A stretch of DNA of 36,269 bases. Source: Nitrospina sp. (GTDB lineage: Bacteria > Nitrospinota > Nitrospinia > Nitrospinales > VA-1). Positions within the stretch are counted from its first letter, which is position 1, and each line of letters begins with the position of its first letter. The notes beneath the pieces were generated by a model, which worked only from the letters and a program-made list of their open reading frames with translations, made no database searches and was not told where the DNA came from. Of this stretch, positions 5,481 to 35,954 are shown one piece after another. Where the stretch lies: NCBI GenBank assembly GCA_002721515.1, contig PBKP01000005.1, positions 1 to 36,269 on the forward strand, written 5' to 3'. The position numbers and the translations under genes are program-made.

Positions 5481-5566
5481 AATACACCCATCTTAAAAAT
5501 ATTTTTAAAATATTATTAGAGTTTTATGATTTTTTACTTTGAAGCGAATCTTGTTCGAATTTAAAA

Positions 5567-6319
5567 TTGGATTTTCACGTGACACCTCAAACAGAAGATT
5601 TTTACAGATATGAATTTAAATATCTGCTAAATTTAGATCAAAGGGAAGCGATTGAGTCAGAAATTTCGCAGTTCATGAGTTATGACGGTCATGTGCATAA
5701 AGAATTAGGAAATGCATATTACATACGTTCTCTCTATTTTGAAAATGACGCTGCCACAAATTTTTATGAAAAGATAGATGGGTTACAAAAAAGGAATAAG
5801 TTTCGCTTACGTACTTATGGAAAGAAATTTGAGAAAGGTTTGCCAATTTTTCTGGAGGAAAAAAATAGAAACGGGGATCGAATACATAAACATCGAATTA
5901 AAATTGACTACGATCACATGAATTACTTTTGTGACTCCTCATTGCGTTACGATTTATGTAATATTTTTCCTGAAGTAGATCTTGTAGAACAATTTTTTTT
6001 TGAGGCGACTCGAAAAATGTTGAAACCCACCGTGCTTGTTGATTATATTCGTCGGCCCTTTATAAGTCCATACGATATGAATTTTCGTGTCACAATTGAC
6101 AGTAACCTTATGGCATTGAGGGGGGATTCTTTATTTAAGTCGACGGAGGGAAATTGGTTATATTGCTTAGCAGGCTATACCATTATGGAGGTGAAGTTTC
6201 ACAGAAGGGTACCCGCTTGGTTTCATCGGATTTTACAGGCACATAATTTGAGGCGTTTATCAATTTCAAAATTTGTTCAGGGAATGAAAAAGACAGGTCT
6301 CGCAGTGGATTTGTCTTAA
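5567..6319 (+). CDS. VTC-domain (polyphosphate polymerase-like) protein
   Basis: A 250-residue protein matching the VTC domain, the tunnel fold that makes polyphosphate from ATP in yeast Vtc4. Visible landmarks in order are RYEFKYLL, YYIRSLYFEN, RNKFRLRTYG, FLEEKNRNG, VLVDYIRRPF, FRVTIDSN, MEVKFH and SKFVQGM, which supply the basic and acidic residues lining the tunnel. Length fits bacterial stand-alone VTC proteins. An in-frame TGA lies shortly upstream, so the start must be TTG at 5567 or GTG at 5579; neither has a strong ribosome-binding site. It sits between the CotH gene and a DUF4956 gene, an association seen in many bacteria. Polyphosphate synthesis is inferred from the fold only; bacterial members could make another phospho-polymer. 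Confidence 0.88.
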   Translation: MDFHVTPQTEDFYRYEFKYLLNLDQREAIESEISQFMSYDGHVHKELGNAYYIRSLYFENDAATNFYEKIDGLQKRNKFRLRTYGKKFEKGLPIFLEEKNRNGDRIHKHRIKIDYDHMNYFCDSSLRYDLCNIFPEVDLVEQFFFEATRKMLKPTVLVDYIRRPFISPYDMNFRVTIDSNLMALRGDSLFKSTEGNWLYCLAGYTIMEVKFHRRVPAWFHRILQAHNLRRLSISKFVQGMKKTGLAVDLS

Positions 6320-6340
6320 ATCATCAGACGAGGTGCATAT

Positions 6341-7030
6341 ATGGATGATGTTCAGGGTTTTCTAAAATCGGAGGCAATGGCCTTTGTCTATGGTCCAGCG
6401 GATATTCTTATTAATATGCTATTGGCCTTCATTTTAGGGCTTTTTATTAGTTATATATATAAAATAACCCATAAGGGACTAAGTTATTCACAGTCTTTTA
6501 TGCTGACCATTGTGTTTGTGGCGCTAATTGTATCAATGGTGATGATGGTAATTGGTAATAATTTGGCCCGGGCTTTTGCCTTGGTTGGAGCTTTAACAAT
6601 TATTAGGTTTCGCACAGTTATAAAGGATACAAAAGATACGGCTTATGTGTTTTTAGCTTTGGCTTCAGGAATGGCAGCAGGGACGTCAAGCTATTTTCTT
6701 GCAATTTCAGGTACTACTATAGTAGCTATTGCAGCCTTAATCTTACATTTTACTAATTATGGATCTTTGTATAAAAGCGAATTCATTCTATGTTTCAGGA
6801 CTCAAACCGGGGAAGGTCAGCCTAATTATAGCAAGGTGATTAACGAGTTTTCAAAATCCGCAAACCTGCTTCATATAGAACCGTCTGGTGATAATAAAAC
6901 AACCCGGTTGACCTTTGATATTCTAATGCATAAAAAGAAGGATCCAAAGGAATTTACCAAACGTATTGCTGAATTTGAAGGGATATCGGAAATAACCATG
7001 GTAGCGTCAAAACATGATGTGGATTATTAA
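6341..7030 (+). CDS. DUF4956 domain membrane protein
   Basis: A 229-residue protein with an N-terminal membrane region of about four segments (roughly residues 20-40, 55-75, 80-100 and 105-135), including the glycine/alanine-rich ARAFALVGALTIIRFRT motif characteristic of DUF4956, followed by a soluble C-terminal domain of about 85 residues (FILCFRTQTG to the end). A GAGGTG ribosome-binding site lies 7 bases before the ATG, and the gap to the VTC gene is only 21 bases, so they are one operon. DUF4956 proteins regularly accompany VTC and CotH genes; the function is unknown, but a membrane partner for the VTC enzyme is reasonable. Confidence 0.88.
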   Translation: MDDVQGFLKSEAMAFVYGPADILINMLLAFILGLFISYIYKITHKGLSYSQSFMLTIVFVALIVSMVMMVIGNNLARAFALVGALTIIRFRTVIKDTKDTAYVFLALASGMAAGTSSYFLAISGTTIVAIAALILHFTNYGSLYKSEFILCFRTQTGEGQPNYSKVINEFSKSANLLHIEPSGDNKTTRLTFDILMHKKKDPKEFTKRIAEFEGISEITMVASKHDVDY

Positions 7031-10042: not shown

Positions 10043-11821
10043 TTAGGAAGACAGGTCTTTACTCCTAGCCATCACCGACCGCAAGGTAACTTCCAATCGG
10101 CCGAGCATATTATCCTCATAGCAATAACGTTCTTTGAAACACTTTAAAACTTTCTGTACTGCTGGGCTTGTCCACCACGCATCTACATCATCCCAGATGG
10201 TGCTCACATGCCGAGCCGCAGATCCAGATGTCTCATGGAATATTCCCACGCGCTTGAGGTCCTCGAAATAGGGAATAGCTGAATCACGCAGCTCCCAGTG
10301 ACTTGGGTTCCAGTAAATGACTGTGGGCACATTCATGGCAAACGCTTCTAAAAAGCTAGTGGCGTTGTAGGTCGAGATGCATAGCCGACTCTTGCGTATC
10401 AGGTCATCGATGTTGGACCTGCCTTTATCCAAGCATGCTTCAGGAAAGTTATCTTGCCAGCGTGCTAACTGATCCCAGCCATAATCGTGTGCGGTTAACC
10501 GAACCGTCAATGCTTTACGAATGTGAACGGGCAAGCTTTCAACAAAAACATATTGATCATCAAGGTAATCCAAGTATTGCCTCGCAATAATCACGCTACG
10601 TATCGGATAACCATACCTACTATGCATGGTAATCACAAGTAGTGCTCCTGCTTGTTCTGCGTGTCGAACTCCCAATGGTCTTTTCCCCTTCAATTGACCC
10701 ACGGGCTTGACTTTAGGTTGATCTGGTTCCGACCAACCCCAGCTTAAATAGCAATCGCTAATAGCCACTTCATGATCCTCAAGAAATGACCAACGACCTA
10801 TGCCGTAATGTCCGCCATGTTGTCCAATAACCAGTGGCGAACCGCATTCTACTTTTTCGGCCGTCCAAGCTTTAAAAACATCATGCGGAATATGCGAATT
10901 ACTCGTCCAGATCAATTTTGGTTGCCTAGGCCAAGGTGAACTCATGACTTGTTCAATAAGTTGGTCATAACCTTCCAGGTAAGCAGTCGGTATCTGCTTA
11001 GGGATCAAGCTACGGGCGAAAACTTCAAAATCAGAACCAGATTTCCCATCAACCACCCATTGTCGCTGGCTTTTATCAACAGAAACTCGAATGGTTGGTA
11101 CTAAACTCCAAATTTGCGGAACCTGGCCAAAACGTTGGCACAACTTTAATTCATCCCATGGTTTTAAATAGGAGGTAAATATGAAAGCATCCTGATCTCC
11201 TGTCAGCATTCTTAAGAACCGCGAATAATAGGAAAATAAGGTTTTCTTGATATTTCTCTTCCAAGTGGTTTTTGGAATCTCTATAGAAACACTCTCTTCA
11301 TCCACACGCAGCACATCTATACAGGGCACTTTAGTATATTTTTGCAGGATAACGCCATAGAGGTGGTGGTTAAACTCGTCGCCTGTAAATAAATGCAGGA
11401 AGTCATCCATATCTTTAGGAATCAGGGATTCGTCTTGGCCAGCAAGTATGACTGTACCCGACAGGTCATAATTACTGTTTGCGAACTGAATAGATGTCCA
11501 TCGATCAAACAAAGTTGGCGTAAAAATCCCCAACCACGGCCCAATCAATATTCGCCAGTATCGCAAACTATGATTTACCCCATGAATCTGGTTGAGTTGG
11601 GCCGACAAATCCCTCAACAATCTTTCATAGAACTCTTGCAAATACTGGTAATCGGCATAAAACTTTTTGCGGTCATCCCAGTGATAGGGCAGTACCTCTG
11701 CATCCATTTTTGACCAACGATCTTTGCGAGAGTACCGTCGGCACCATTCGCCAAGAAACAGGACGGGCTCATCATCACGCCAAGTTTCTTCCAACGCCGT
11801 CGAAACCAGCAACCTTTTCAT
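10043..11821 (-). CDS. LIC12162-family putative transferase
   Basis: A 592-residue protein whose start (KRLLVSTALEETW followed by EPVLFLGEWCR) and end (VGIFHETSGSAA, then a WW motif) match the LIC12162 family (TIGR04331), named from a Leptospira surface-polysaccharide locus. The second half has a GT-B look (GQHGGHYGIGRW, and ISTYNATSFLEAFAMNVPTV near the end, like a nucleotide-sugar-binding domain). An AGGAG site lies 9 bases before the ATG. GC is about 45-55% in sampled rows against 27-38% in the preceding gene, which suggests a different history from its neighbours. It lies downstream of a NeuB-like synthase on the same strand. The biochemical activity of the family is not established. Confidence 0.85.
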   Translation of the reverse strand: MKRLLVSTALEETWRDDEPVLFLGEWCRRYSRKDRWSKMDAEVLPYHWDDRKKFYADYQYLQEFYERLLRDLSAQLNQIHGVNHSLRYWRILIGPWLGIFTPTLFDRWTSIQFANSNYDLSGTVILAGQDESLIPKDMDDFLHLFTGDEFNHHLYGVILQKYTKVPCIDVLRVDEESVSIEIPKTTWKRNIKKTLFSYYSRFLRMLTGDQDAFIFTSYLKPWDELKLCQRFGQVPQIWSLVPTIRVSVDKSQRQWVVDGKSGSDFEVFARSLIPKQIPTAYLEGYDQLIEQVMSSPWPRQPKLIWTSNSHIPHDVFKAWTAEKVECGSPLVIGQHGGHYGIGRWSFLEDHEVAISDCYLSWGWSEPDQPKVKPVGQLKGKRPLGVRHAEQAGALLVITMHSRYGYPIRSVIIARQYLDYLDDQYVFVESLPVHIRKALTVRLTAHDYGWDQLARWQDNFPEACLDKGRSNIDDLIRKSRLCISTYNATSFLEAFAMNVPTVIYWNPSHWELRDSAIPYFEDLKRVGIFHETSGSAARHVSTIWDDVDAWWTSPAVQKVLKCFKERYCYEDNMLGRLEVTLRSVMARSKDLSS

Positions 11822-12076: not shown

Positions 12077-12949
12077 TTAATATTCAAAATATATCTTTTT
12101 AAGTTTTTTTCGTTGGGCCTCTTCGATTTCCAGAATTTCCTGCTCTTTAAAAGTCAGGGCTCTCTGAACAACCTTTGTATCTCGAGCTACCCTCCTCAAA
12201 CCTTCAGGCTCGAGAGAGGCCGCATGATCCGTTCCCTTCCAAGCTCTGTCAAGAGTGAAGTGGCGCTCAATCCACTGGGCTCCTAACACGTAAGCTGCAA
12301 CATCGATAGCTACTCCAGTATGATGCCCTGAAAAACCTATCCCCTTAACGTATTTTTCATAGGTGTTTTTTAGGCGTGTGATCTCTAACAGACAGACATC
12401 TTCGGGTGGAACTGGGTAGCCCGAAGTGCAGGCATATAAAATCGCGTCTTTATGCCGGTTATTCTTCTTGAGAAAGTCTACAATACTTTCTTCTTCCTGA
12501 CGGTTAGTCATGCCCATGGAAATGTGGATCTCCCCGGGGAAATGGTCACACAAATAACCCAATATCTTCTGGTTAGAGTTACATGCGGATGGAACCTTAA
12601 TCATGGCTGGGTTCAGAGAAATGATGTCTTTAGCTGAAGTTATGTCCCAGACAGAGCAAGAATATCCAATACCAATACTATCGCAAAGTTCTTTTAGCTC
12701 CTGATGCTGATCACGGCTAAACTCAAGAAACTCCCTATGCTCACCATAGCTTTCTCCATATGAATTTTCTTTGGTCGGATGGGGTGCGTTATACTCTTTT
12801 TCAGGCAAACTTTCTTTGGGATTTCTTTTTTGGAACTTAACAAAATCTGCATTACAAAATTGCTTGGCCACCAATATCATCTCTTTAGCAATTTCTAAAT
12901 CACCTTTATGATTACAGCCAATTTCTCCGATGATAATTGGTCTTATCAC
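12077..12949 (-). CDS. NeuB-like nonulosonate synthase without SAF domain
   Basis: A 290-residue TIM-barrel protein of the NeuB/PseI/SpsE family, which condenses phosphoenolpyruvate with a six-carbon amino sugar or sugar phosphate to give a nine-carbon sugar acid. Landmarks: GEIGCNHKGD (residues 8-17), FVKFQKR (36-42), KVPSAC (118-123), ACTSGYP (173-179), GFSGHHTG (205-212) and ERHFTLDR (228-235). It stops where the C-terminal SAF (antifreeze-like) domain of about 60 residues would begin. The strand that reads LHCT in Neisseria NeuB, with a metal-ligand histidine, reads YACT here. It overlaps the upstream HAD phosphatase gene by 4 bases (ATGA), so the two products very likely act together. 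Confidence 0.88.
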   Translation of the reverse strand: MIRPIIIGEIGCNHKGDLEIAKEMILVAKQFCNADFVKFQKRNPKESLPEKEYNAPHPTKENSYGESYGEHREFLEFSRDQHQELKELCDSIGIGYSCSVWDITSAKDIISLNPAMIKVPSACNSNQKILGYLCDHFPGEIHISMGMTNRQEEESIVDFLKKNNRHKDAILYACTSGYPVPPEDVCLLEITRLKNTYEKYVKGIGFSGHHTGVAIDVAAYVLGAQWIERHFTLDRAWKGTDHAASLEPEGLRRVARDTKVVQRALTFKEQEILEIEEAQRKKLKKIYFEY

Positions 12950-13461
12950 TTCGAACTCGAAAATAAAATTTCAATCAAATCTAGTCTCAAAATATCCTCC
13001 AACAATTCCCTGGCGACACCCGCACCACCATTTGTTTTCAAAGTCACCGTTGCTAAATCCTTTATTCGAACATGACTGTCAGCAGGGCACGCCGAATAAC
13101 CACACAAGGCCATAGCATGAAAATCGTTCAAATCGTTGCCCACATAAAGTAGGTTTCCAAATTCATAGCTCTGCTTTCCCACTAAGTCAGTCAATGCGTC
13201 TGCCTTATCCATGACACCCTGAAGAACAGGAACCTTGAGTTTTTTTGCCCTTTGTGAAACGATCAGATTCTTTTCTGTTGATAATATATATACAGGCATG
13301 CCTATCTCCCTTAAAGCTTCAAAAGCTAAGCCATCACCTCTACAGCAACTAACTAACTCTGTCCCATGCTGGTCGACATAAACACGATTATCCGTCAGCA
13401 CCCCATCAAAATCAAAAATTATCGCATCCAGACTCTTCAACTCAATCTTTTTATTACTCAA
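12946..13461 (-). CDS. KdsC-like HAD-superfamily phosphatase
   Basis: A 171-residue capless HAD phosphatase. Motif I is IFDFDGVLTD (nucleophile Asp17, acid/base Asp19), motif II ILST (residues 59-62), motif III Lys86 (GVMDK), and motif IV GNDLND (108-113). Length and order fit KdsC (KDO-8-phosphate phosphatase) and its relatives that dephosphorylate nonulosonate 9-phosphates or are fused to CMP-sialate synthetases. The 4-base overlap with the NeuB-like gene favours a nonulosonate 9-phosphate substrate. No cytidylyltransferase gene is visible in the window to complete activation. The ATG lies 79 bases after the upstream radical SAM stop. Confidence 0.88.
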   Translation of the reverse strand: MSNKKIELKSLDAIIFDFDGVLTDNRVYVDQHGTELVSCCRGDGLAFEALREIGMPVYILSTEKNLIVSQRAKKLKVPVLQGVMDKADALTDLVGKQSYEFGNLLYVGNDLNDFHAMALCGYSACPADSHVRIKDLATVTLKTNGGAGVARELLEDILRLDLIEILFSSSK

Positions 13462-13540: not shown

Positions 13541-15508
13541 TCAGCGGCCTTTTCGAAAAATAGCCATACTAGGATTGTCACTTTTTATAACTGGGAAAAT
13601 CTTTTTTCTTAAAATTTTTCTTAGGGAAATATATTCTGGAAGGAATTTCTCATTCCCATTCTTAAATAAATCCAATAGCCACCAACTTATATATTCACAA
13701 ATTAATTTCAGGGAAAAAATGACACCATACTTTCTAATGCAGTTGCAAAAAACAAAAACCAAAGTTAAATATTTATACTTCCAGAAAAACTTCGGGTAAA
13801 ATGTAGCCAAAGACCCAATTGATTTTTGCCGAAGCAGAGACCATATGGAGGGGATTTCCCCTTTTTCTATCCTAACCTTTTCCTTATTAACATTAGAAGA
13901 ATCTGCAGAATCACTGCTTGCCTGTGGCTTCGGCAAGCCAGCATTAATAATTGGCGCCTCCTTCTGCCTAGCTGGATCCGCAAAATAACCAGAATCATTA
14001 GTTTGGCTCCCTACAGCAATTTTTTCTAAATCATAATACCTGTGAGAATTTAAAATTACCTTATAGTAATTATCAAAACCCCATTTTTTCACATAAGCTT
14101 GCCTTGCCCTATTTGCAATATCGAAATTCCATTTTTCAAGTAAAAGCCGCGGATAATCCGTGAAATTGAGATAAGTTTCTCCATCTCGCGCATCCCTATC
14201 AGATATTTTGATTAAATACTTTTCTTCATCTTCCAAGGAACTTCCAATATCACCTTTATGACGAGCAATTTCATACAAAGGTGTACCTGGAAGGGCTTGG
14301 GCAAAATTAATGCTTAGAGAATTCGGGTCTGTTTTGGGAGATTGCTCAACAAAAAAAGAAACAAATTGACATGTTTCCTCGATTGTTTCCGGAGTTTCCC
14401 CAGGCATTCCAATTATAAGCTGGACAATAGTGTAAAGGTTGTTTTCCGCCATCCATTTTAAAGCATTATAGTTTTGTTCGACCTTGGTAACTTTTTCCAT
14501 AACGTCGAGAATTTTTTGGCTACCACTTTCCATTCCATAATAGATACTGAAACAACCTGCTTCTTTCATTTTTTTTATTGATTCTGGGTTAATAGTATTA
14601 ACCCGCATTCCAGCAACTCGCCAAAGAATATCGCGCTTTGCAACTTCTTGAATAAATAAATTGAGCCATTTTCTATCAGTACCAAAATTTTCATCAGAAA
14701 AATTAACGACGCCAACATTGTAATTTTTTATAAAGAAGTCTAAGCGTTTCATCAAAATGGGAACCGGAATATATCTTATCCCTTTATCCCAACGATGGCA
14801 AAAGGTGCAACGCGCCACACAACCCTTACTTGCTGCAAGATGAGCAATCCTTTTACCCTGCCTATGAGGCTCAGAAATTCTCCTATCGCGAAGAAAGGAA
14901 CTTGACATTAACGGGGCAACTTCTTTTATAGGAAAAAAGAACTCTTTCTTTTCCCCAGTGCCCATTAAAGACCAGTCAATATCATAGACTTCTTCAGGTT
15001 TTATTGTTTCCTGAAAAGGGGTTACAACCAAATCGTTTGCTTTATCTAAAAAGGCCAATCCATTAACATCCTTAAAACATTCTTTGGATTCAGCTACCAA
15101 CCAACGATTTGCAAAATCGACAACTGCTCTCTCTCCTTCACTAGTACAAATAAAATCAACACCTGTCTTTTTTAATACAATTTCAGCTGATGCTCCTAAA
15201 TTACCTCCCATAAAAATAATTGTTTTAGGAAGTCTCTTTTTTAATTCCAACGTTAGTTTCTTGGTATATTTGTAGGCTGTAGAAACTACTGCACTGACTC
15301 CAATAATATCGGGGTTTTTATTTTCAATATAATCTAAAGCAATGGGGAAAGAAGGGCGTAGAAAATCGATGTCGTAAAATTCAGTTTTATTAAATCCCGC
15401 CTTTTTTAAGGCCGTGATGACAGACAAACTTCCTATAGGCGGAAAATCAGTAGGAATAGGCCTAATTGGTATAGTTATGATTAATATATTTGGGTTGTTT
15501 TGGGTCAC
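13541..15508 (-). CDS. B12-binding-type radical SAM protein
   Basis: A 655-residue protein. Residues 1-150 form a Rossmann-like cobalamin-binding domain (PPIGSLSVITALKKAG, DIIGVSAVVSTAYKY, IIFMGGNLGAS, ICTSEGERAV). The radical SAM core follows with the cluster cysteines at 230, 234 and 237 (CVARCTFC), then VNFSDENFG, YYGMESGSQKIL and IIGMPGETPETI. The last 180 residues form a helical tail ending SDNPSMAIFRKGR. Such enzymes often methylate or rearrange unreactive carbons in natural products, lipids and sugars; the substrate is not predictable. It heads a likely transcript with the HAD and NeuB-like genes. A frameshifted copy of its last 66 or so codons exists at 25578-25795. Confidence 0.88.
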   Translation of the reverse strand: MTQNNPNILIITIPIRPIPTDFPPIGSLSVITALKKAGFNKTEFYDIDFLRPSFPIALDYIENKNPDIIGVSAVVSTAYKYTKKLTLELKKRLPKTIIFMGGNLGASAEIVLKKTGVDFICTSEGERAVVDFANRWLVAESKECFKDVNGLAFLDKANDLVVTPFQETIKPEEVYDIDWSLMGTGEKKEFFFPIKEVAPLMSSSFLRDRRISEPHRQGKRIAHLAASKGCVARCTFCHRWDKGIRYIPVPILMKRLDFFIKNYNVGVVNFSDENFGTDRKWLNLFIQEVAKRDILWRVAGMRVNTINPESIKKMKEAGCFSIYYGMESGSQKILDVMEKVTKVEQNYNALKWMAENNLYTIVQLIIGMPGETPETIEETCQFVSFFVEQSPKTDPNSLSINFAQALPGTPLYEIARHKGDIGSSLEDEEKYLIKISDRDARDGETYLNFTDYPRLLLEKWNFDIANRARQAYVKKWGFDNYYKVILNSHRYYDLEKIAVGSQTNDSGYFADPARQKEAPIINAGLPKPQASSDSADSSNVNKEKVRIEKGEIPSIWSLLRQKSIGSLATFYPKFFWKYKYLTLVFVFCNCIRKYGVIFSLKLICEYISWWLLDLFKNGNEKFLPEYISLRKILRKKIFPVIKSDNPSMAIFRKGR

Positions 15509-19660: not shown

Positions 19661-21559
19661 ATGAACGATTCGGAAGATAAAATAACAACTTCCTCATCAA
19701 TGCTGGTTGTACTTGAAGGAAATTCCCATTGGAATACTGACTCAAAAATTACTGTCAACTGGGATAAAATCACAGTACCCTCCGACCAGATATCTCTGCC
19801 TACCCAAGCCGATGATCAAGTGCTTGAGATAAAGAAGAAATTTTTAGCTTGGGCCTATGAGGTTAGCCAAATCCAAATCGATGGCAAAACCGTTACAGAA
19901 CATCTGAAGATTTTTGAAGGCCTTTCTTTCTGGTGGATGACTTTGATGGGTGAAAAATCGCCTTACAAATGCCCGGCCATATACGCAGTATTCAAGCTAC
20001 ATACCTTAGAAAAACTCTACCAACATTATGACTGTCGAGGAATTATTTTTAATGGAAACGATTCGGCTCTAGGTCAAGTATTAAACCAATGGTGTGCTGA
20101 AATGGGGCATCCATACAAAAAAGTCCCGTCCTCTTCAAAGAAAACCTTTCACTTCAGCTTAAATTATCTATTTTCAAAATTGCCTTATTTAATTCAAGCA
20201 TGTGTTTGGTTTATTCATAGAGCGTGGACACGTTTTCGGCATGTTTCAAGTGTACACATAACACCAGAAAAAGAAATGACCGAAATAACTATGGTCACCT
20301 ATTTTCCCAACATTAATAGAGAAAAAACTGAGCAAGGACGATTTTTTTCCCGGTATTGGGGGGATTTGCATTCCCTGTTGGACAAACTCCCATTTCGAAT
20401 TCGTTGGGTGTGGTTTTACTTTAAACAAAATGAGATTGACTTCCAAGAGACTGTAAGGCTCCGCGATGTGTGCAATGAAACCCAACCAGAAAAATATAAA
20501 CACCATTTGCTGGAAGAGTTTCTGAGTCCCAAATCTTTGTTGCTCGCAATTCGGCTATATTCGAAGGTTTACAAAAAAGGAAAACAACTGAAAAAACTAC
20601 AAAAAAACTTCGTTTTACCCGGTTCTCAATTAAACTTTTTTCCCTTTTTCAAAACCGACTGGGATACTTCCTTTTTCGGATCCTTGGCTCGAGATGAAGC
20701 CTTGCGGATCGCTTTGTTCGATTCCATGGTTTTGACTTTGCCTTCAGGCACCTTTGGAATGTTCCCCAGTGAAAATCAAGGCTGGGAACTAGGCCTAATT
20801 TCCGCATGGAGGAGACATCAAAAAAAAATGACCATATTAAGTTTTATTCATTCTTCTTTCCGTCCTCTGGATCTGTGCATACTATCTGATTCAAGAACCC
20901 ATGAAAATGCCGATTCGCTTTCCCTTCCCTGCCCAGATCTTTGGGCGATAGGAATCTCTTCCTGTTTGAATTTGTTTAAGGAATCAGGCTACCCTCAAGA
21001 AAAGCTATTGCCGGTTGAAGCGCTGCGATACTTACATTTGATGGGACGTTTTGGAAGTGAAAAAAAAGATTTGCCACAGACAGGACGTATTTTGCTAGTC
21101 GCCTCGGGCATGACAAACCAAGAAACTCCGGCACATTTTGAAATGCTGGTTGAGGCGGCACAGAAAAGTGGGTTAGATAAATACGCCAAGGTCATTATTA
21201 AACCTCATCCTGCGTTTCCTCTAAATGATTTTTTGAAGAATTATGATCTGCCCTTTTCCTATACCCTTTCCAACGAAAGCCTGGATTCCCTCTGGCCCAG
21301 TGTAGATGTCGTGTATTGCCCTAACCCTTCTAGTATTTGTGTGGAAGCGGCATGGTTGGGAGTACCCGTAATTATTCCAAGTTCTGTGAACGCTTTGAAC
21401 CTGAATCCACTATACGGCCTGCCCCGTCTAAAAGAAGTTAAAAACAGTGCCATGTTGGTCGAAAAACTCAGCAACCCTTCTCTAGTAAGCATACCCAAAG
21501 ACTATTTTTTCTTTGACCAAGACCTAACACGGTGGAAGAAATTTTTGAAGAATAGATAA
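19661..21559 (+). CDS. TIGR04326-type surface carbohydrate biosynthesis protein
   Basis: A 632-residue protein. The N-terminal region (FWWMTLMGEKSPYKCPAIY, residues about 90-110) resembles the TIGR04326 surface carbohydrate family known from Leptospira and other O-antigen loci. The C-terminal half has GT-B features: ILLVASGMTNQETPAHFEML, AKVIIKPHPAFP, and YCPNPSSICVEAAWLGVPVIIPS, which looks like the nucleotide-sugar-binding face. About residues 320-400 form a central linker region. A hydrophobic stretch near residues 170-190 may be an amphipathic membrane-contact helix. It lies alone on the plus strand between minus-strand operons. Family assignment is from memory of sequence pattern; the reaction is unknown. 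Confidence 0.7.
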   Translation: MNDSEDKITTSSSMLVVLEGNSHWNTDSKITVNWDKITVPSDQISLPTQADDQVLEIKKKFLAWAYEVSQIQIDGKTVTEHLKIFEGLSFWWMTLMGEKSPYKCPAIYAVFKLHTLEKLYQHYDCRGIIFNGNDSALGQVLNQWCAEMGHPYKKVPSSSKKTFHFSLNYLFSKLPYLIQACVWFIHRAWTRFRHVSSVHITPEKEMTEITMVTYFPNINREKTEQGRFFSRYWGDLHSLLDKLPFRIRWVWFYFKQNEIDFQETVRLRDVCNETQPEKYKHHLLEEFLSPKSLLLAIRLYSKVYKKGKQLKKLQKNFVLPGSQLNFFPFFKTDWDTSFFGSLARDEALRIALFDSMVLTLPSGTFGMFPSENQGWELGLISAWRRHQKKMTILSFIHSSFRPLDLCILSDSRTHENADSLSLPCPDLWAIGISSCLNLFKESGYPQEKLLPVEALRYLHLMGRFGSEKKDLPQTGRILLVASGMTNQETPAHFEMLVEAAQKSGLDKYAKVIIKPHPAFPLNDFLKNYDLPFSYTLSNESLDSLWPSVDVVYCPNPSSICVEAAWLGVPVIIPSSVNALNLNPLYGLPRLKEVKNSAMLVEKLSNPSLVSIPKDYFFFDQDLTRWKKFLKNR

Positions 21560-21581: not shown

Positions 21582-22415
21582 TTAACTATGAAAAATGTCA
21601 AAATGTGTTTCGTAGTACTTCAGCAAAAAAGGGCGCAACATGTACGCACAGCTTTCATTCTCCACTCGATAAATGGTACGATCCTTGTTATCCAAGGAAA
21701 AGTATTTAACGCCTCTAGGAGGTATCACTTCTGATTCTTCTCGTATCACTTGTAAGGTGTTATCAAACAAACGAACTTTTACAGCTAAATCAGAATTATT
21801 CGGGTTAATATAAATTAGGTCGAAGCCATCACAATCAGAGAATGAAAGTTGAGGTTGATAAAGAATTTTCCTATCAAGATTCCTGCGGGTAGTTTGAACT
21901 TCTTCATGGTCAGGTGGTTTAGCAAGTACATAGGCTGCTCCGTGAACATAACTCCATAGAGGAATCTCATCTGTTACCCTTCGATACGCAGTAAAGCCAC
22001 GTTCCACAATGCAGGTTTGGGAGGGAGCAGACATAGAGCTCTTAGATGCCTCATGAAAACACGCCATGCTGCCAAACCCTGAGTTGCCTTCAAGAATATC
22101 TTCAATCCGAATAGCTTTGGTCTGAAAAGGGGGAATAGTGATTTGTTTCCGGAGAAACTCATGTCCTTGTTGGTCATAAAAAACCAAGGTTACTCTATCA
22201 GAAATATTTTTATTAGGATAAAGAATTGATGGCAAATTGAGTAAATCGAAACGCGTTCTCCAAATTTCATCAGACCTCCAGAAAAACAAATCACTTACAG
22301 AATAATCCAGAGGGGGTTCGTTGTAATATTTAGGCAAAATCCCAAATAAATTACGAAATTTAATGCTTGGGCGTAAATTAGCAAGATACTGAATAAATCT
22401 TTTAAGAGGATACAT
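21582..22415 (-). CDS. Uncharacterised beta-rich protein A in glycan locus
   Basis: The frame opens at 22523, but that would overlap the upstream gene by 122 bases; the ATG at 22415 (MYPLKRFIQYLANL) overlaps it by 14 bases and is the likelier start, giving 277 residues. No signal peptide. Two Ig-like beta-sandwich segments can be seen: VTLVFYDQQGHEFLRKQITIPPF and, later, DLIYINPNNSDLAVKVRLFD followed by EVIPPRGVKYFSLDN, each a strand-turn-strand pattern ending in a proline-rich turn. I do not recognise the family. It is the last gene of a four-gene minus-strand set with protein B, a zinc-ribbon methyltransferase and a radical SAM/SPASM enzyme. Confidence 0.65.
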   Translation of the reverse strand: MYPLKRFIQYLANLRPSIKFRNLFGILPKYYNEPPLDYSVSDLFFWRSDEIWRTRFDLLNLPSILYPNKNISDRVTLVFYDQQGHEFLRKQITIPPFQTKAIRIEDILEGNSGFGSMACFHEASKSSMSAPSQTCIVERGFTAYRRVTDEIPLWSYVHGAAYVLAKPPDHEEVQTTRRNLDRKILYQPQLSFSDCDGFDLIYINPNNSDLAVKVRLFDNTLQVIREESEVIPPRGVKYFSLDNKDRTIYRVENESCAYMLRPFLLKYYETHFDIFHS

Positions 22416-23214
22416 TTTTTGCAAAGCTATTAACCCAGTGAGTTTTAACTTCTTTAATGAAACCGTGTCGCTTGGCATTGTCGCCAAAAACCGTGAATTC
22501 ATGCGGGGGGTAAGAGTGTTCAAGACTCATTAAACGATAAGAAGGATCATGGCTGAAAAATATTGGTATTCCAGCCATATCAGGAGAGTATAGACAGAGG
22601 GGATCCTTAGGATCGTTTTTCAAACCCGATAAATCGATTAGATTACAAATGTTGGTTTCTATTTCGAATTTTTTTTCTATTTTCCCTGAAATTTGACATA
22701 TAACAAACAATCGACCAACCTTTATTTCTGCAGCCCGAACAAGGTTCGCTACTATTAGTTTAGTAATGACTCCAGGAAAGCTTTGAATTAATGGGTTGAA
22801 GACAAGTATCGTCCCTCCGGAAATATTTAACATAAACCCTGGATATTCCCCTTGATAACTCACGGAAGTTGTCTTAGAACTCAACTGAATATTGCCACGC
22901 CAGTTAGGGTCGGATTCCATGAAATGGTCAATGGGAAGCAAGTCCAAACGCTCCGGCAAACGTTTAGGATACATAAAAAAGAATACGGCACTATCTTTAG
23001 TCGGTCGCTCCGGCAAATCCTCCACACAGAGGGAAACTGTACTTCCTGAAGTAAGTTCTAAAATGAAAAAAACTTTCCAGTCTGCTCCGGTCGAAAACGT
23101 AGCGTGAACATAAACAGATTCAGATTTCCATGAAGAACTTGTGGTGGGTGGGAAGTTTGCCAAGGTAACAGTTGATTGGAGATAAGGTATTTGCGGGAGA
23201 AAATAATAGTTCAT
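22402..23214 (-). CDS. Uncharacterised beta-rich protein B in glycan locus
   Basis: A 270-residue protein beginning MNYYFLPQIPYLQSTVTLAN, without signal peptide or membrane segment. Predicted mainly beta. A distinctive C-terminal segment reads PIFFSHDPSYRLMSLEHS, then PPHEFTVFGD, with several His, Asp and Tyr residues that could form a binding or active site. It lies 4 bases after the methyltransferase gene and overlaps protein A's gene by 14 bases, so all three are translated from one message. I do not recognise the family. Protein A also has a tract of similar character (PLWSYVHGAAYV), but I cannot show homology by eye. Confidence 0.7.
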   Translation of the reverse strand: MNYYFLPQIPYLQSTVTLANFPPTTSSSWKSESVYVHATFSTGADWKVFFILELTSGSTVSLCVEDLPERPTKDSAVFFFMYPKRLPERLDLLPIDHFMESDPNWRGNIQLSSKTTSVSYQGEYPGFMLNISGGTILVFNPLIQSFPGVITKLIVANLVRAAEIKVGRLFVICQISGKIEKKFEIETNICNLIDLSGLKNDPKDPLCLYSPDMAGIPIFFSHDPSYRLMSLEHSYPPHEFTVFGDNAKRHGFIKEVKTHWVNSFAKNVSS

Positions 23215-23218
23215 AAGC

Positions 23219-24205
23219 TTACATTTTCCTGGCGACCACGACGATATTTCCAGCTTTCTTTTTATTCATCAGATATTCTTCCAGAACCCGTTCGAAATCC
23301 GGGTCAAAAACTTCCTGCCACAGAAAATTTCCGATGGCGCTACGATCCACCTCATTTTTCTCAATAATTTTTTTAACATAAGATATATCCAAGGAGGAAT
23401 TGAGAGTGAAGGCCTCGGCAATTCTGAAAGAATTATTTCGCAAAAGAATATCAATACACTTGTAGTTCATGAGATTGACATGGCCTGGAGGTAAAATTTG
23501 CACATGCTTTTCTCTTGCGCAAATCCATTCAAAACTGTCGGTGTTGGGGGTGGAAAAAACAAAAATGCCATCGTCTTTCAAGAGGTGGTGTGTTTTTTGT
23601 AACATGGCTTTTGAATCGACGATATGTTCGATTGTATCCCATAATGTGATCACGTCGAATTGGCTATCGACATCCATATCCAGGTAATCCTGGTTGAGGA
23701 TTTTAACATCAGGGTATCTTTCTCCCAGTTCTCTGCAGGCTTCTTCGCTCATATCGCAACAAGCCAGATCGAATGAGCAACTGGCTCTGTGTAAAGCCTC
23801 GATGAAAATTCCAATGGCCGAACCCACATCCAAAAGCTTCCCGTGAGACTTGTATTTTTGGATCAGTTCAATCCTTGGAAGAAAAATATTAATTCGCTTT
23901 TCAAAGGAGTCTCTAAAGAATTCATTTTCAAAAGATTTCATTTCACTATTGTAATAGGCGTTAATTTGCTCCTTTGTGGGGTAGGGATTGCAAAACAAGA
24001 GTCCGCAATCAAGGCAACTGGAAATATCAAACTGGTAAGCATTGACAAAAAATTCGATTTTTGTGGAAGGGCAAATAGGACAGGAGTCTAAAACAGGATT
24101 GTCATTTTTCAATTCAGCCAGCCGAGAAACAGTTTTTATCATCATCTCTCGAAGTTTTTTTTGTTTTTTTTGAGTGTGTATGTCGTTAAATTCCAGCTTT
24201 TTCAT
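23219..24205 (-). CDS. SAM methyltransferase with N-terminal zinc ribbon
   Basis: A 328-residue protein. Cysteines 42, 45, 64 and 67 (CPIC and CLDC) form a four-cysteine zinc ribbon typical of the Methyltransf_13/23-type sugar C-methyltransferase relatives, followed by the usual FCNPYPTKEQINAYY segment. SAM motif I is LLDVGSAIGIF (about residue 124), with FDVITLWDTIEHI at motif IV and IFVFSTPNTDS at motif V. These enzymes often methylate activated sugars or lipid-linked precursors. It starts an overlapping group with two beta-rich unknowns (next gene 4 bases on). Confidence 0.88.
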   Translation of the reverse strand: MKKLEFNDIHTQKKQKKLREMMIKTVSRLAELKNDNPVLDSCPICPSTKIEFFVNAYQFDISSCLDCGLLFCNPYPTKEQINAYYNSEMKSFENEFFRDSFEKRINIFLPRIELIQKYKSHGKLLDVGSAIGIFIEALHRASCSFDLACCDMSEEACRELGERYPDVKILNQDYLDMDVDSQFDVITLWDTIEHIVDSKAMLQKTHHLLKDDGIFVFSTPNTDSFEWICAREKHVQILPPGHVNLMNYKCIDILLRNNSFRIAEAFTLNSSLDISYVKKIIEKNEVDRSAIGNFLWQEVFDPDFERVLEEYLMNKKKAGNIVVVARKM

Positions 24206-24342
24206 AATTCTATATTATATGTTCCACTTAAATTTTTGATCGAGTTTCACATAGGATGACTAAGAATAAGTTACAACGAGTTTCAGGCAGAACAAAGGAA
24301 GGCAACTATTGGATACTAAAGATCAGGAGTGCTTGACGGATT

Positions 24343-25245
24343 TTAGTTTTTTGCATTTTTATAATGATTCAGCCAACCTTCTCGATGTTCCTTTCCGTGA
24401 AGTGTGCCATTAGTATTACAATTCTTACAAGGCATCAGCGCTCTCTTTCCATTACCAAGAACCTTGCGATATTTATTGAAATTGGGGGAAGTCCAGACTT
24501 CTATTAAAGATTGATGGTTTAAGTTACCCATCTTGATTTTTTTATTCCAGTCTTGAACGCAGAGGAGAACATCACCATTCCAATCGATGGACATCGAATA
24601 ATGAGTATAAAAACAGGGCCTGTTTTCTTCCACATCGGTCTGGTTACCTTCTATAACAGTGCCAGCGCGGTTGGTTAGCTTGACACCGTAATCATTATCC
24701 ATGGTATACCAGCGGTCCCGTAGGAAATAATGGGACTCTGGAACCTTGGCTTCGGAAAAAATTTGGCGGAAATGGTCCAGTTGATGCGGACCGTCATAAA
24801 GGCTGACCAAGATTTGAGAGATACCTGCATTATAAAGGTCTGCCACAGATTGTGGAGTTAAAAAATCCCCACTGGTGATCAATTCAGTACGAATATCTTT
24901 CCCAAAAATTTTTGCCATCGCAATAAAATCGGGGTGAAGCGTGGGTTCTCCATAGCCAGAAAGAGCTACACCGCCAGTGTAATGCAAACTCCTGAGTTCA
25001 TCCGCTATTTTGGAGCAAAGATCCAGGGAAATATGCAAATTCTGGTTTGGGTAAAGTTCAGTTTCGGCCCGTGGGCAAAACACACATCTGCGGTTGCAAA
25101 GTTCCGTTGGATTGATATCGAGCCAACTAAACAAAGGAACATTGTTGACAAATTCTACTTTGTCAACAAAAACAGATTTCCTTTTGATGTTCTTTTTTAT
25201 TGTTTGTTCAAAAATTTCATTTTTTAATTGTTGGTCTTGCGGCAT
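24343..25245 (-). CDS. Radical SAM/SPASM domain enzyme
   Basis: A 300-residue protein from the ATG at 25245, which has GGAG 6 bases upstream; the ATG at 25257 (adding MEIY) lacks one. The radical SAM motif CNRRCVFC is at residues 50-57 in this numbering, within LDINPTELC, followed by ALSGYGEPTLHPDF. The C-terminus carries SPASM-type cysteines (CFYTHYSMSIDWNGDVLLC, and CKNCN near the end) that bind an auxiliary iron-sulfur cluster. SPASM enzymes mature peptides or modify carbohydrates and nucleosides. The neighbouring methyltransferase and surface genes make a glycan role plausible, but this is inference. 137 bases separate it from the methyltransferase gene. Confidence 0.88.
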   Translation of the reverse strand: MPQDQQLKNEIFEQTIKKNIKRKSVFVDKVEFVNNVPLFSWLDINPTELCNRRCVFCPRAETELYPNQNLHISLDLCSKIADELRSLHYTGGVALSGYGEPTLHPDFIAMAKIFGKDIRTELITSGDFLTPQSVADLYNAGISQILVSLYDGPHQLDHFRQIFSEAKVPESHYFLRDRWYTMDNDYGVKLTNRAGTVIEGNQTDVEENRPCFYTHYSMSIDWNGDVLLCVQDWNKKIKMGNLNHQSLIEVWTSPNFNKYRKVLGNGKRALMPCKNCNTNGTLHGKEHREGWLNHYKNAKN

Positions 25246-25257
25246 ATAAATCTCCAT

Positions 25258-25577: not shown

Positions 25578-25795
25578 TTAGCTGTCAACGACCTTTTTAA
25601 AAATAGCCATACTCGGGTTGTCACTTGTTATTTCTGGAAATTTCTTTATTTCGTAATAATTTTTCTCAGAGAAATATATTCTGATAGAAAAGGTTTAGAT
25701 TTATTTTTAAAAATATTTTTCAAACACCCAATTAAGTATTCAAAAAGTAAAGTCAATGAAAACATAAAACCATATTTCCGAATGCAATTACTAAA
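25578..25795 (-). pseudogene. Frameshifted remnant of a B12 radical SAM gene 3' end
   Basis: On the minus strand this reads CIRKYGFMFSLTLLFEYL and, further on, SEYISLRKI in one frame; near 25650 the match continues in the next frame as EIKKFPEITSDNPSMAIF before TAA at 25578-25580. The intact protein at 13541-15508 has CIRKYGVIFSLKLICEYI, PEYISLRKI, and RKKIFPVIKSDNPSMAIF at its end. The alignment covers the last 65 or so codons with one single-base frame change. Homology begins at the stop codon of the lysine 2,3-aminomutase gene (25791-25793), so a deletion or recombination joined the two. Confidence 0.8.
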
Positions 25796-26912
25796 CAGGT
25801 AATCGGCAAATATCCTTTAGGGATTCTTGAGAGCTTCCCTTTAAGGACCCGTTTCCCCTATCCGATTGACTGTAACGAAATACTTTGCCTTCATAATTGG
25901 TGATTATCACTTCATCATTCGTATGCTCGACAACATTGTTAGGTAACAGTCGGACTTTACCTCCACCACCAGGAGCATCAATCACATAGTATGGAACCGC
26001 CATGCCTGATGTATATCCCATCAAGTCTTTCATTATTTCGAGGCCTTTTTGTACCGATGTGCGCAAATGGTCAGTACCTTCTGTCATATCTGCCTGATAA
26101 ATATAGTAAGGCTTAATGCGATTTTTTAATAATTTTTGCATCAATTCCTTCATCGTTTCTGAGTCATCGTTGACACCTTTAAGTAATACAGTTTGACTGC
26201 CTAACGGGATCCCAATATCAGCAAGCTTGGAGCAGGCTTTTTCCACTTCGGGCGTTAACTCTGCAGGATGATTAAAATGAATATTGAAATATAATGGGTG
26301 ATATTTTTTCAATATGTTGCAAAGATTTTCAGTAATCCTTGCTGGTAGGGTACCGGGAACGCGAGTACCGATGCGTATGATTTCCAAATGCGGAATGGAT
26401 CGCAATTCACTTAGAATCCTATCTAGCTCTTTATCAGGAACCAGAAGTGGATCGCCTCCTGACATAATAACATCCCTGATTTCCGAATGATCGCGAATAT
26501 ATTGTATTCCTTGCCTTAAAGTTTCTCGGGTGACTATTCCTGGAAATCCAATTTTACGTTTGCGCGTACAAAAACGGCAAACAATGGGGCATTGGTTATT
26601 AATCATCAATAAAACACGATCTGGATATCGATGAACAAGTTCTGGAACAGGCATATCAACTTCTTCGTTAAGCGGATCGGTTATCAGTTCCTCGCTATCA
26701 AAATCGTCTAACTCTGCAAGGGTAGGAACAACTTGTTTCCACAAAGGATCATCTGGGCTTTTTATCTGTTCAAGAAAATAGGAATTAATTCGAATGGGAT
26801 AATTTTCTCTGACCTCTTCCAGTTTATTCCTGTATTCTTCGGAATCAGGAATAAAAGGAAGGTCTTTGACCTTAACCACACTTTGGCTAAGTTGTTTTTG
26901 CCATAATTCCAT
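25791..26912 (-). CDS. kamA: Lysine 2,3-aminomutase (KamA family)
   Basis: A 373-residue PLP-dependent radical SAM enzyme that would convert L-alpha-lysine to L-beta-lysine. Cluster cysteines are 108, 112 and 115 (CPIVCRFC) followed by TRKR; SGGDPLL (151-157) binds SAM; PLP-binding Lys319 lies in APGGGGK; Asp275 (QADM) and Asp312 (VIDAPGG) correspond to the two aspartates that bind the lysine side-chain amine in the clostridial enzyme, which favours lysine as the substrate. It lacks the cysteine-rich zinc tail of the 416-residue clostridial form. It is the last gene of an operon, 23 bases after a glutaredoxin-like gene; its stop codon abuts a radical SAM remnant. Confidence 0.92.
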   Translation of the reverse strand: MELWQKQLSQSVVKVKDLPFIPDSEEYRNKLEEVRENYPIRINSYFLEQIKSPDDPLWKQVVPTLAELDDFDSEELITDPLNEEVDMPVPELVHRYPDRVLLMINNQCPIVCRFCTRKRKIGFPGIVTRETLRQGIQYIRDHSEIRDVIMSGGDPLLVPDKELDRILSELRSIPHLEIIRIGTRVPGTLPARITENLCNILKKYHPLYFNIHFNHPAELTPEVEKACSKLADIGIPLGSQTVLLKGVNDDSETMKELMQKLLKNRIKPYYIYQADMTEGTDHLRTSVQKGLEIMKDLMGYTSGMAVPYYVIDAPGGGGKVRLLPNNVVEHTNDEVIITNYEGKVFRYSQSDRGNGSLKGSSQESLKDICRLPV

Positions 26913-26935: not shown

Positions 26936-27172
26936 TCAAGAGTTTACTGGATAGTTTCTCTTTAAATAATCAATGATTGCGTATTCATCCGATAAAATGG
27001 TATCACCATCAACTAACACAGGCACGGTAGTTTGCCCTGAAACCTCATAGACTTCTCTCCGCTCAGAGTGCGACCAAGGTACATCTATCTTTTCATAATC
27101 AATACCCATTTGCTCAAGCACATTTCTTACCATTGAACAATATCCACATCCATCAATATTAAATAGCTTCAT
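26936..27172 (-). CDS. Glutaredoxin-like / GST N-terminal domain protein
   Basis: A 78-residue single-domain thioredoxin-fold protein: LFNIDGCGYCSMVRNVLEQM with the CGYC active site at residues 9-12, the cis-proline motif TTVPVLVDGD and DEYAIIDYLKRNY as the last helix. It is like the first domain of glutathione S-transferases or a short glutaredoxin. The start overlaps the stop of the ATP-grasp-like gene by 4 bases (ATGA), and the aminomutase gene follows 23 bases later. It could keep thiols reduced or carry a thiol substrate; the tight coupling suggests a specific partnership. Confidence 0.88.
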   Translation of the reverse strand: MKLFNIDGCGYCSMVRNVLEQMGIDYEKIDVPWSHSERREVYEVSGQTTVPVLVDGDTILSDEYAIIDYLKRNYPVNS

Positions 27173-28554
27173 TTTGCCTTATTTTTTGTAACACAAGGGA
27201 CCATAATCGCATCCACCATACCATGAATCTTTTTTTTGTCATGAGGGCAAAGTGTTGCCAAAATACCGCCAAGTTTGGTCATATTGTTCACAACAAAATA
27301 GTAAGGGGTTAATCTTACTCGGCTCATCATGGTTTCCATTTTACCAGTAGCCAAATTCAAAAACTTGCCCTCAACCTTTTTTCCTTTATAAAACTTTTGT
27401 AAAATCGATGGTCTATTGGGAAACTGCTTCAAACTTTCAATTAAGGTTTCTTGCCAAATTTCATTAGAAACATCGTGACCTACTACAACTCCCCGGCTTC
27501 CCCATGATTCAGGAGAAAAACCCGATGGTTTGATTACCATTTCCCTTTCTTTTTTCGTCAACGAAAATAATTCTTTCCAATCTCTAACCGAAACTCCCTT
27601 TATTTCTAAGCCTGGTATGATTCCATGAGGTGGCAATGGTCTTGAATCTAAAACCCATGTAGCAGGAATTAGATGATTTAAAGTTGTAAAAGTTTCATTA
27701 CCCAGAGCTTTTTTCCAAATTAATTTTAAAAAAGGATGGTGAAAAAGTGCGAAACCAAGCTTTTCCTCTAGCCAGGGCTTGTAGGGAGGAGTAGTAAAAA
27801 CTTTTCCTTTTTTACATGAATATAGAAGTAACTCTGATTTAGGAATATTTTTTAAGTCAAATAGTTCAAAAAAACGATATAAAACTTCTATTCGGACCCA
27901 TTTTTCTTCTTGTTTTAGAAAAAGACCCTCCTCCTTAAAAGTAATTTCTTTGGGATGAACTACATAGACACCTTTTTGTTTTAATATTTTTACAAGGTAT
28001 TGCATCTCACTGAGATAAGCTTTGGACTCATCGGATACAACAATAGCTACAGTTGGAGAGGTTTGACTGGATATAGATTCTGTCATTTTATAAAACAGAG
28101 AAGGAATCCCTTCTCCTACCATATCCCATGAAGGATCTTCATAAAGAGACATAAGTGATGCAGTCAACCCAAAACCACCTGGAACCGAATCAAGTTCTGT
28201 TATAGCAAAACCATCTTCTGTCACAATCACATCGGGTCTTATGATTCCAGGCAATGACTGACGCATTCTTTTCATACGTCCAAATTGTAAAAGTTCTTGT
28301 GGTTTCCCAGCATCTAAATATTCAGAAACCCAAGGATTAAGTGTGCCCTTGGTACTATCTAGATAAAATTGGTTTAGGGTAGAATAAAATTCGAGGAGTT
28401 TGGGTCCTAAGTCATGAAAAAAATTGATTTCCTTTTGAGAAAGGAAATAAGGCTCTGGGGAGATTCTCCAAGTATTGCCAGAATCAGAAAACAACCCCGC
28501 CTGCACTAGGGACGCCCGTATATTAAGACACGTTTTTTCAGGTTGGACAATCAT
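27169..28554 (-). CDS. ATP-grasp-like protein coupled to Grx and KamA
   Basis: A 461-residue cytosolic protein. The pattern IRPDVIVTEDGFAITELDS followed by VPGGFGLTASL near residues 103-130, and MVIKPSGFSPESWGSRGVVVG with ILQKFYKGKKVEGKF near 345-400, resembles the ATP-binding and acceptor parts of ATP-grasp ligases, particularly the permuted glutathionylspermidine-synthase-like type. I do not recognise an exact family. It is the first gene of an operon (4-base overlap with Grx, then KamA). An obvious hypothesis is that it ligates an amino acid, perhaps beta-lysine, to an acceptor; nothing in the sequence proves this. Confidence 0.65.
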   Translation of the reverse strand: MIVQPEKTCLNIRASLVQAGLFSDSGNTWRISPEPYFLSQKEINFFHDLGPKLLEFYSTLNQFYLDSTKGTLNPWVSEYLDAGKPQELLQFGRMKRMRQSLPGIIRPDVIVTEDGFAITELDSVPGGFGLTASLMSLYEDPSWDMVGEGIPSLFYKMTESISSQTSPTVAIVVSDESKAYLSEMQYLVKILKQKGVYVVHPKEITFKEEGLFLKQEEKWVRIEVLYRFFELFDLKNIPKSELLLYSCKKGKVFTTPPYKPWLEEKLGFALFHHPFLKLIWKKALGNETFTTLNHLIPATWVLDSRPLPPHGIIPGLEIKGVSVRDWKELFSLTKKEREMVIKPSGFSPESWGSRGVVVGHDVSNEIWQETLIESLKQFPNRPSILQKFYKGKKVEGKFLNLATGKMETMMSRVRLTPYYFVVNNMTKLGGILATLCPHDKKKIHGMVDAIMVPCVTKNKAK

Positions 28555-34151: not shown

Positions 34152-35954
34152 ATGAAAACATTATTGATTTTTCCGGCTCAGTGGTATCCAACTCAGCCTT
34201 ATCTGAGCACCCCTTACCTAACTGCCTATTTGCAAGATAAGGGATGGCAGGTATCACAACGAGATTTTAACATTGAATCTTACGATCATTTCTTATCTGC
34301 GCCCTTATTACGTCAAGCAGAGGAAATGATGAGGCAACATCAGCATTCTTTAAAAAACCAAAACTCCCTGTCAATCAAGGAAAAATCGCATCTCGATGTT
34401 CTAACAATGGGGCTAAAGTTTTCGGATAGAATTATTGAAGGGGTTGAAGAAGCCAAATTAGTAATGCGAACACCTGAACGTTTCTTTGATTTTAACGCAT
34501 ATCAACAAGCAGATATGGTTATAAAATCAGCTTTAAAACTTGTTTCTGATGCCTATGCACCCTCTATATTCAATCTTTCTACCTTTGAAAGCGGTACACG
34601 AGCAGAAGAATCTACGCAAAAAGCTCATAAAACGACCCGTGATACAACTACTAACCCGTTCATCAACTTATATGAAAATTTTTTACTGCACACAGAAAAC
34701 TGGCAGAAATGTGACGTAGTGGGAATATCTATAATCGGAATATCGCAAATCATTCCAGGGCTCACTCTTGCGAGAATGCTGAAAGAAAAATATCCACACC
34801 TGCATATAACTTTAGGAGGCCCAATTTTCAGTGTCAACGCAGGCCAGTTAATCAATCATCCTGAGTTTTTTGAGGATTTTTGCCACAGCGTAATCACATT
34901 CGAAGGAGAAGAGCCAATGCACCGCCTACTATCTGCATTGAAAGCAGGCGATTCTCTCCATAGCGTTCCCAACCTCTTACACGTGGATGCCGGAAAAGTA
35001 TTACAAAATCAAGAAAGAGTGGAACTCAGATTTGAGGAATTGCCAAACCCAGTTTTTGACGAACTCCCGATGGACAAATATCTATCACCCTATCCAATAA
35101 TACCTGTGCTGCAAAGCCGTGGTTGCTATTGGGGCAAATGCACATTTTGCACGCATAGCTTTGTTTATGGTCATCGTTACGGAAAACAAAAAACTCAAGC
35201 AATGGTCGATGAACTAGAAAACTTAATGGAAAAATATAACACTAAATATTTTACTTTTTCTGACGAAGCAGTATCTCCGCATTCGTTAAATGACGTATCT
35301 GAAGAAATGATCGAGCGCGGAGTCGAAATATGCTCTCTAGCCTTATTAAAATTTGAAAAGGTAATGGACGAAGATTTATTTTTGAAAATGAAAAAAGCCG
35401 GATTCATGTTTCTTATGTTTGGGCTTGAAAGTGCGAATGATAGAGTGTTAGCCCTTATTGAAAAAGGAACTACTAAAGAAGTAGAACGCGACGTATTGAT
35501 GAAAAGTCATAATGCTGGAATTTGGAATCATTCGTTTTTATTTTTCGGATTTCCAACAGAAACCCGCGAAGAAGCCCAGGAAACCATCGATTTTCTTCGA
35601 AACAATTTACAATCAATTCATTCCTTCGGACCCGGCGTATTTTTATTAAATCGCGATTCGAGTTGCTACCAATTTCCAGAAAAGTTTTCTATTGAAAAAA
35701 TAATTGAAGACCCCAACCGCAATATTGCAATGAATCTCGATTTTATTGCAAAAGAAGGTATGACGCGGGAGGAGGCAGTAGAAATGAACGACACATGCAT
35801 ACGTATGGCAGAAGAACATTTTGAATCACTCAAAATTTGGGGAACACTGCCACGCGAACATTTTTTACTCTATATTGATAAATTTGGGAAAGACGCATTA
35901 AACGGTAAGCAACCTCCTACCGCAGAAGAGGAAAAGGTTCTTTGCCGAGTATAG
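34152..35954 (+). CDS. B12-binding-type radical SAM protein with CX4CX2C motif
   Basis: A 600-residue protein. The first 170 residues include an N-terminal strand (LLIFPAQWYPTQPYLSTPYL) and a helical insertion; residues about 185-265 are the cobalamin-binding-like Rossmann part (DVVGISIIGISQIIP, ITLGGPIF, EGEEPMHRL). The radical SAM core has its cluster cysteines at 325, 330 and 333 (SRGCYWGKCTFC), a CX4CX2C spacing shared by a subgroup of these enzymes rather than CX3CX2C, followed by FTFSDEAVS, FMLFGLESANDRVL and FFGFPTETREEA. Substrate unknown. A paralogue follows 25 bases later, so they are probably an operon. Confidence 0.88.
   Translation: MKTLLIFPAQWYPTQPYLSTPYLTAYLQDKGWQVSQRDFNIESYDHFLSAPLLRQAEEMMRQHQHSLKNQNSLSIKEKSHLDVLTMGLKFSDRIIEGVEEAKLVMRTPERFFDFNAYQQADMVIKSALKLVSDAYAPSIFNLSTFESGTRAEESTQKAHKTTRDTTTNPFINLYENFLLHTENWQKCDVVGISIIGISQIIPGLTLARMLKEKYPHLHITLGGPIFSVNAGQLINHPEFFEDFCHSVITFEGEEPMHRLLSALKAGDSLHSVPNLLHVDAGKVLQNQERVELRFEELPNPVFDELPMDKYLSPYPIIPVLQSRGCYWGKCTFCTHSFVYGHRYGKQKTQAMVDELENLMEKYNTKYFTFSDEAVSPHSLNDVSEEMIERGVEICSLALLKFEKVMDEDLFLKMKKAGFMFLMFGLESANDRVLALIEKGTTKEVERDVLMKSHNAGIWNHSFLFFGFPTETREEAQETIDFLRNNLQSIHSFGPGVFLLNRDSSCYQFPEKFSIEKIIEDPNRNIAMNLDFIAKEGMTREEAVEMNDTCIRMAEEHFESLKIWGTLPREHFLLYIDKFGKDALNGKQPPTAEEEKVLCRV

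Follow-up and report, generated by a model that had tools for sequence, protein, structure and literature searches.

What do two unfamiliar, beta-rich proteins do downstream of a radical SAM/SPASM enzyme and a methyltransferase, and do the four products belong together? The initial annotation of this DNA treated them as one set that could build an unusual modified sugar or peptide. We find that the two downstream genes, encoding the proteins here called A and B, form a pair that recurs with the same overlapping arrangement in all four intact loci, mostly close to genes for surface-glycan synthesis, and that the two enzymes accompany them in one lineage.

Organization of the locus

The window is the whole stretch of 36,269 nucleotides of the Nitrospina sp. 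contig that was analysed. The four genes are as follows, L009 being one of three other loci described below.

24343..25257, minus strand: radical SAM/SPASM protein, 304 aa (Pfam PF04055 and PF13186 above cut-off; cysteines; 81% relative in L009)
23219..24205, minus strand: class I SAM-dependent methyltransferase with an N-terminal Cys-pair (zinc-ribbon-like) segment, 328 aa (PF13489, E 4.7e-17; 74% relative in L009)
22402..23214, minus strand: protein B, 270 aa, no family (family searches, alignment, AlphaFold model)
21582..22415, minus strand: protein A, 277 aa, no family, two Ig-like repeats (family searches, alignment, hhalign)

The four open reading frames of the initial annotation are all present, and they are transcribed from the radical SAM/SPASM gene (25257-24343) through the methyltransferase gene (24205-23219) and B (23214-22402) to A (22415-21582). 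The first two genes are 137 bp apart; the tight coupling claimed earlier is seen in the 4 bp gap between the methyltransferase gene and B, and in the 14 bp overlap of B and A that follows from a start of A at 22415. We place this start at ATG 22415, instead of the mechanically listed TTG 22523, because the relatives of A start at the same place; likewise, the radical SAM gene more likely starts at 25257 than at 25245, since 25257 is aligned with the start of the L009 relative. The relatives of A and B are 61, 47-49 and 31-36% identical, and the third-codon positions are the most diverged; judging from these alignments, A and B are real genes.

A lysine 2,3-aminomutase-like gene (25791-26912), present in 28 of the 31 relatives searched, scores below the lysine equivalog cut-off; a 461 aa open reading frame (27169-28554) is matched by neither Pfam nor NCBIfam with an E limit of 0.1; and two B12-binding radical SAM proteins (13541-15508 and 34152-35954) both remain below every named equivalog cut-off. 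Elsewhere, the gene for a CotH kinase-like protein that includes a beta-helix region stands ahead of VTC-domain and DUF4956 genes (2721-7030), a possible phosphate- or polyphosphate-related group, and the segment 15001-16500 is AT-rich, with a GC content of 0.303 compared with about 0.38 for the window.

Families, motifs and predicted structure of A and B

The statement that A and B have no recognizable family held in every search, and no well-described family emerged for either protein. With an E limit of 0.1, neither has a match in Pfam or NCBIfam; with the limit raised to 10, A matches only the Ig family Big_15 (E 0.14) and B nothing. Their profiles found nothing convincing among PDB sequences, and searches of phage, plasmid and viral-contig sequences were negative, with only a chance-level plasmid match for B (E 0.3). 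A wider Ig-repeat search with the first domain of A returned, besides the known match, a single chance-level match.

A consists of two internally repeated Ig-like halves, which resemble each other with an hhalign score that none of 180 shuffles reached, the shuffles being a weak null. An internal repeat in B is not supported against the null, and homology between A and B, suggested by a common SD..WR motif, does not rise above the shuffle null. Hydropathy indicates no obvious signal peptide or membrane segment in either protein. The AlphaFold models, built on four-sequence alignments, are of low quality, with a pLDDT of 46 for A and of 58 for B; they are too weak for firm fold matches, and the matches obtained are thus weak evidence. 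The model of B is mostly beta-strand and more confident in its C-terminal half. Its top structure matches are antibody Fabs, but the TM-scores are near 0.1, which amounts to no more than a generic Ig signal.

Alignment of the four sequences gives 71 invariant columns in A and 52 in B. In A, these include SDLFFW..D..WRTRFDLxN and, near the C-terminus, HFD[IV]FH; in B, they include WRxN...SxTTxxSxQGEYPxxML and EHSxPxxE. In the His/Asp/Tyr-rich segment of B that had been proposed earlier as a possible active site, the part HDPSYRL is not invariant, in contrast to the two motifs of B just given.

Distribution of the pair and of the two enzymes

Peptide patterns were scanned against the genome contigs of 84,980 species, one genome per species, a scan that distant relatives lacking the patterns could escape, and profile (HMM) searches covered 77 genomes of the window's phylum for A and 60 relatives for B. 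Together, the scan and the phylum searches yielded three intact A-B pairs outside the window, L009, L010 and L011, plus one decayed B. By profile search, A occurs in 2 of the 77 phylum genomes, both of the window's genus, and B occurs in the same two genomes among the 60 relatives; a third member of that genus has a B remnant that is frameshifted and truncated.

The order is B, then A, in every one of the four intact loci, the two genes overlap by 8-14 bp, and the proteins are 31-62% identical. Of these loci, the window and L009 alone have the radical SAM enzyme and the methyltransferase upstream of B and A; in these two the order is identical, the genes are in near-contact and all four are kept at 61-81% identity. 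L009 carries a Nitrosomonadaceae label, which would place it in a different phylum; we reject this assignment and regard the contig as probably misbinned, since its kamA is 91% identical to that of the window and 87% identical to those of other members of the same genus as the window. L010, a 9.8 kb contig of genome G008 labelled Nitrospinaceae, carries the pair together with a distinct Cys-pair methyltransferase, which is encoded on the opposite strand and is 20% identical over 198 residues. L011 is labelled Euryarchaeota, and an HpaC-like flavin reductase gene lies directly upstream of the pair, overlapping the start of B by 4 bp; this gene is absent from the other A-B loci (window, L009 and L010). 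Close relatives of the window radical SAM enzyme and methyltransferase are found in neither L010 nor L011.

Considering that B and A overlap in all four intact loci and that the two enzymes join them in just two of these, the comparison of these loci argues that the A-B pair is the conserved unit and that the radical SAM enzyme and the methyltransferase are its partners in one lineage. The proposal of one four-gene set is therefore not supported: the complete set was seen in a single other locus, of the same genus. Rare adjacency of the four genes elsewhere, which the initial annotation named as a refuting outcome, thus largely applies to the set but does not apply to the pair.

The decayed B gene, with its frameshift and 3' truncation, lies at L003:1462-1734 and in L007 near 7719-8083, directly beside pilP in genome G003 and about 6 kb from kamA. 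The presence of pilMNOP-type genes both near this remnant and flanking the intact pair of L010 suggests a variable locus.

Surface-glycan setting

A carbohydrate-synthesis setting for the window is supported by the following genes.

10043..11821, minus strand: TIGR04331 (LIC12162) family transferase (NCBIfam 516.6 bits, cut-off 225)
12077..12949, minus strand: NeuB-family nonulosonate synthase (PF03102, E 1.3e-65; TIGR03569 below the equivalog cut-off)
12946..13461, minus strand: HAD phosphatase related to KDN-9-phosphate phosphatase/KdsC (NF058599, E 7e-30, below cut-off)
19661..21559, plus strand: TIGR04326 (LIC13510) family surface carbohydrate biosynthesis protein, convergent with A (NCBIfam 456 bits, cut-off 250)

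LIC12162-family genes occur in three of the four intact loci, namely the window, L009 (about 4 kb from A) and L011 (directly beside A). The 9.8 kb contig of L010 has no such gene, and its genome carries LIC12162 genes on other contigs. The TIGR04326 gene is convergent with A in L009 as well as in the window. Across the phylum, TIGR04331 is found in 9 and TIGR04326 in 6 of 77 genomes, and both A-bearing genomes carry both; the chance of this co-occurrence is about 0.012 for TIGR04331 and 0.005 for TIGR04326 if genomes are taken as independent, which these two, being of one genus, are not. A and B are neighbours or co-residents of the LIC12162 and LIC13510 families but not members of them, and they are extra genes in a minority of the genomes that have such families. 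A full-text search of one collection of papers found a single passing mention of LIC12162-type surface-glycan synthesis.

The radical SAM/SPASM enzyme and the methyltransferase

The radical SAM enzyme has the CxxxCxxC motif at residues 54-61 and SPASM cysteines at 215, 233, 277 and 280; with its Pfam matches above cut-off, it belongs to the radical SAM/SPASM proteins. It shares the radical SAM core and the SPASM domain with its expected cysteines with TIGR04317, TIGR04321 and others; however, it reaches no named NCBIfam equivalog cut-off and falls far under each (best TIGR04317, 76.5 bits against 380), is shorter at 304 aa than the matched models and lies in glycan clusters. The methyltransferase, with Cys pairs at 42/45 and 64/67, an AdoMet motif I (LLDVGSAIG) and a Methyltransf_23 domain, is a class I SAM enzyme built like other zinc-ribbon class I methyltransferases, but its closest relative elsewhere in the phylum, in genome G037, is only about 30% identical.

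In two genomes, G031 and G033, a protein 35% identical to the radical SAM enzyme is encoded at a distance of about 10 kb from a LIC12162 gene, and these loci contain no A, B or such methyltransferase. In G033, the one locus in which the neighbours were assigned by family search, a CMP-Kdo-type cytidylyltransferase gene lies beside the radical SAM relative; by eye, further neighbours look like an oxidoreductase and an aldolase-like protein, and the layout of open reading frames is identical in G031. Literature searches for radical SAM/SPASM proteins with O-antigen or sugar epimerase returned nothing relevant.

Comparison of A with the ASRT superfamily

Members of the ASRT superfamily are eight-stranded beta-sandwich proteins in which strand 2 ends in a conserved Asn with a tight turn and strand 1 begins with a Trp; ASRT-like domains occur as dyads or tetrads and have been proposed to bind sugars inside cells (De Souza, Iyer and Aravind 2009, PMC2739507). 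An intracellular beta-sandwich family (ASRT/ASRAH, PF07100) that often forms dyads and is encoded near carbohydrate genes invites comparison with A and B. None of 180 shuffles reached the score of A against the ASRT profile, a weak null, and the absolute hhalign probability is only 3-8%. Foldseek matched A to the ASRT structure 2ii7 with a probability of 1.00 and a TM-score of 0.46 by target length, from a query model of pLDDT only 46. N204 of A is invariant and, in the weak hhalign alignment, falls on the conserved ASRT Asn; N60 is similarly placed in the first repeat by eye only. W46 and W52 precede N60 at a spacing shorter than that of the ASRT strand 1 Trp, and the second repeat has no Trp at its start.

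The similarity is confined to a strand-turn-strand segment, neither A nor B matches PF07100 even at E up to 10, the SHEshChhN signature of the ASRT-like family proper is absent from both, and no PF07100 protein was found in the 60 relatives. For B, the similarity to ASRT is not above the null and the strand 2 Asn region is not alignable, so B is unrelated by these tests. That A works like an ASRT is thus a lead; we do not claim that A is an ASRT, as it does not pass the sequence tests of that family.

Discussion

A and B are probably an obligate, uncharacterized two-protein module of rare surface-glycan clusters. Our preferred reading of this module, held tentatively, is a cytoplasmic two-subunit complex that binds sugar or serves as a scaffold in a rare surface-glycan pathway. 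In this model, the overlapping genes would be translationally coupled, and B and A would be obligate subunits made largely of Ig-like beta-sandwich domains. The host pathway would be the patchily distributed surface-glycan synthesis marked by LIC12162 (TIGR04331) and TIGR04326 genes, in which the pair would most likely bind a sugar intermediate, such as a nonulosonate-type sugar or short glycan, and keep it in place until it is modified or transferred, in the manner suggested for ASRT. In the window lineage, the radical SAM/SPASM enzyme and the methyltransferase encoded directly upstream may carry out oxidation or epimerization and methylation; in other lineages, different enzymes would take their place. 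Against a purely binding role, numerous H, D, E, C, R and W residues of A and B are invariant, a pattern compatible with an enzyme as well.

The main rival, somewhat less likely in our judgment, is that A and B form a heteromeric enzyme of glycan synthesis, with an active site, possibly holding a metal, made from two motifs close to the C-termini, EHSxPxxE of B and HFD[IV]FH of A. The flavin reductase of L011 and the window's radical SAM enzyme would then be redox partners or alternatives. The invariance of both motifs at only 31-36% identity and the overlap of the flavin reductase gene with B speak for it; however, neither protein resembles any enzyme family in Pfam, NCBIfam or the PDB sequences, four sequences are too few to part functional from merely shared residues, and the reductase is missing from the other loci. 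The bolder form of this proposal, a new kind of two-subunit Ig-like beta-sandwich enzyme whose two motifs share an active or metal site and which acts on a sugar in LIC12162-type synthesis, seems improbable to us.

We consider it unlikely that the four genes are one dedicated pathway for one unusual sugar or peptide. Their identical order, near-contact and conservation in the window and L009 fit such a pathway, but both loci belong to one genus and thus represent one inherited arrangement; moreover, the pair lives without close enzyme relatives in L010 and L011, and radical SAM relatives without A or B in G031 and G033. In a last reading, A and B would serve the cell surface or pilus in an accessory or structural capacity and be housed in glycan islands with no direct enzymatic or sugar role. 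This would agree with the Ig-like pattern and weak Big_15 match of A and with the pilMNOP-type genes adjoining the pair in G008 and the decayed B in G003, but it is doubtful, as neither protein has a signal peptide or membrane segment by hydropathy and a search of the window, L008 and L009 revealed no relatives of these pil genes.

A and B thus present a clean orphan pair: overlapping genes that are always together, with strongly conserved motifs and no family, known from a handful of assemblies of uncultured organisms. If the A-B complex we favour, or an enzyme in its place, binds or modifies a sugar, the pair would be a new component of LIC12162-type surface-glycan synthesis.
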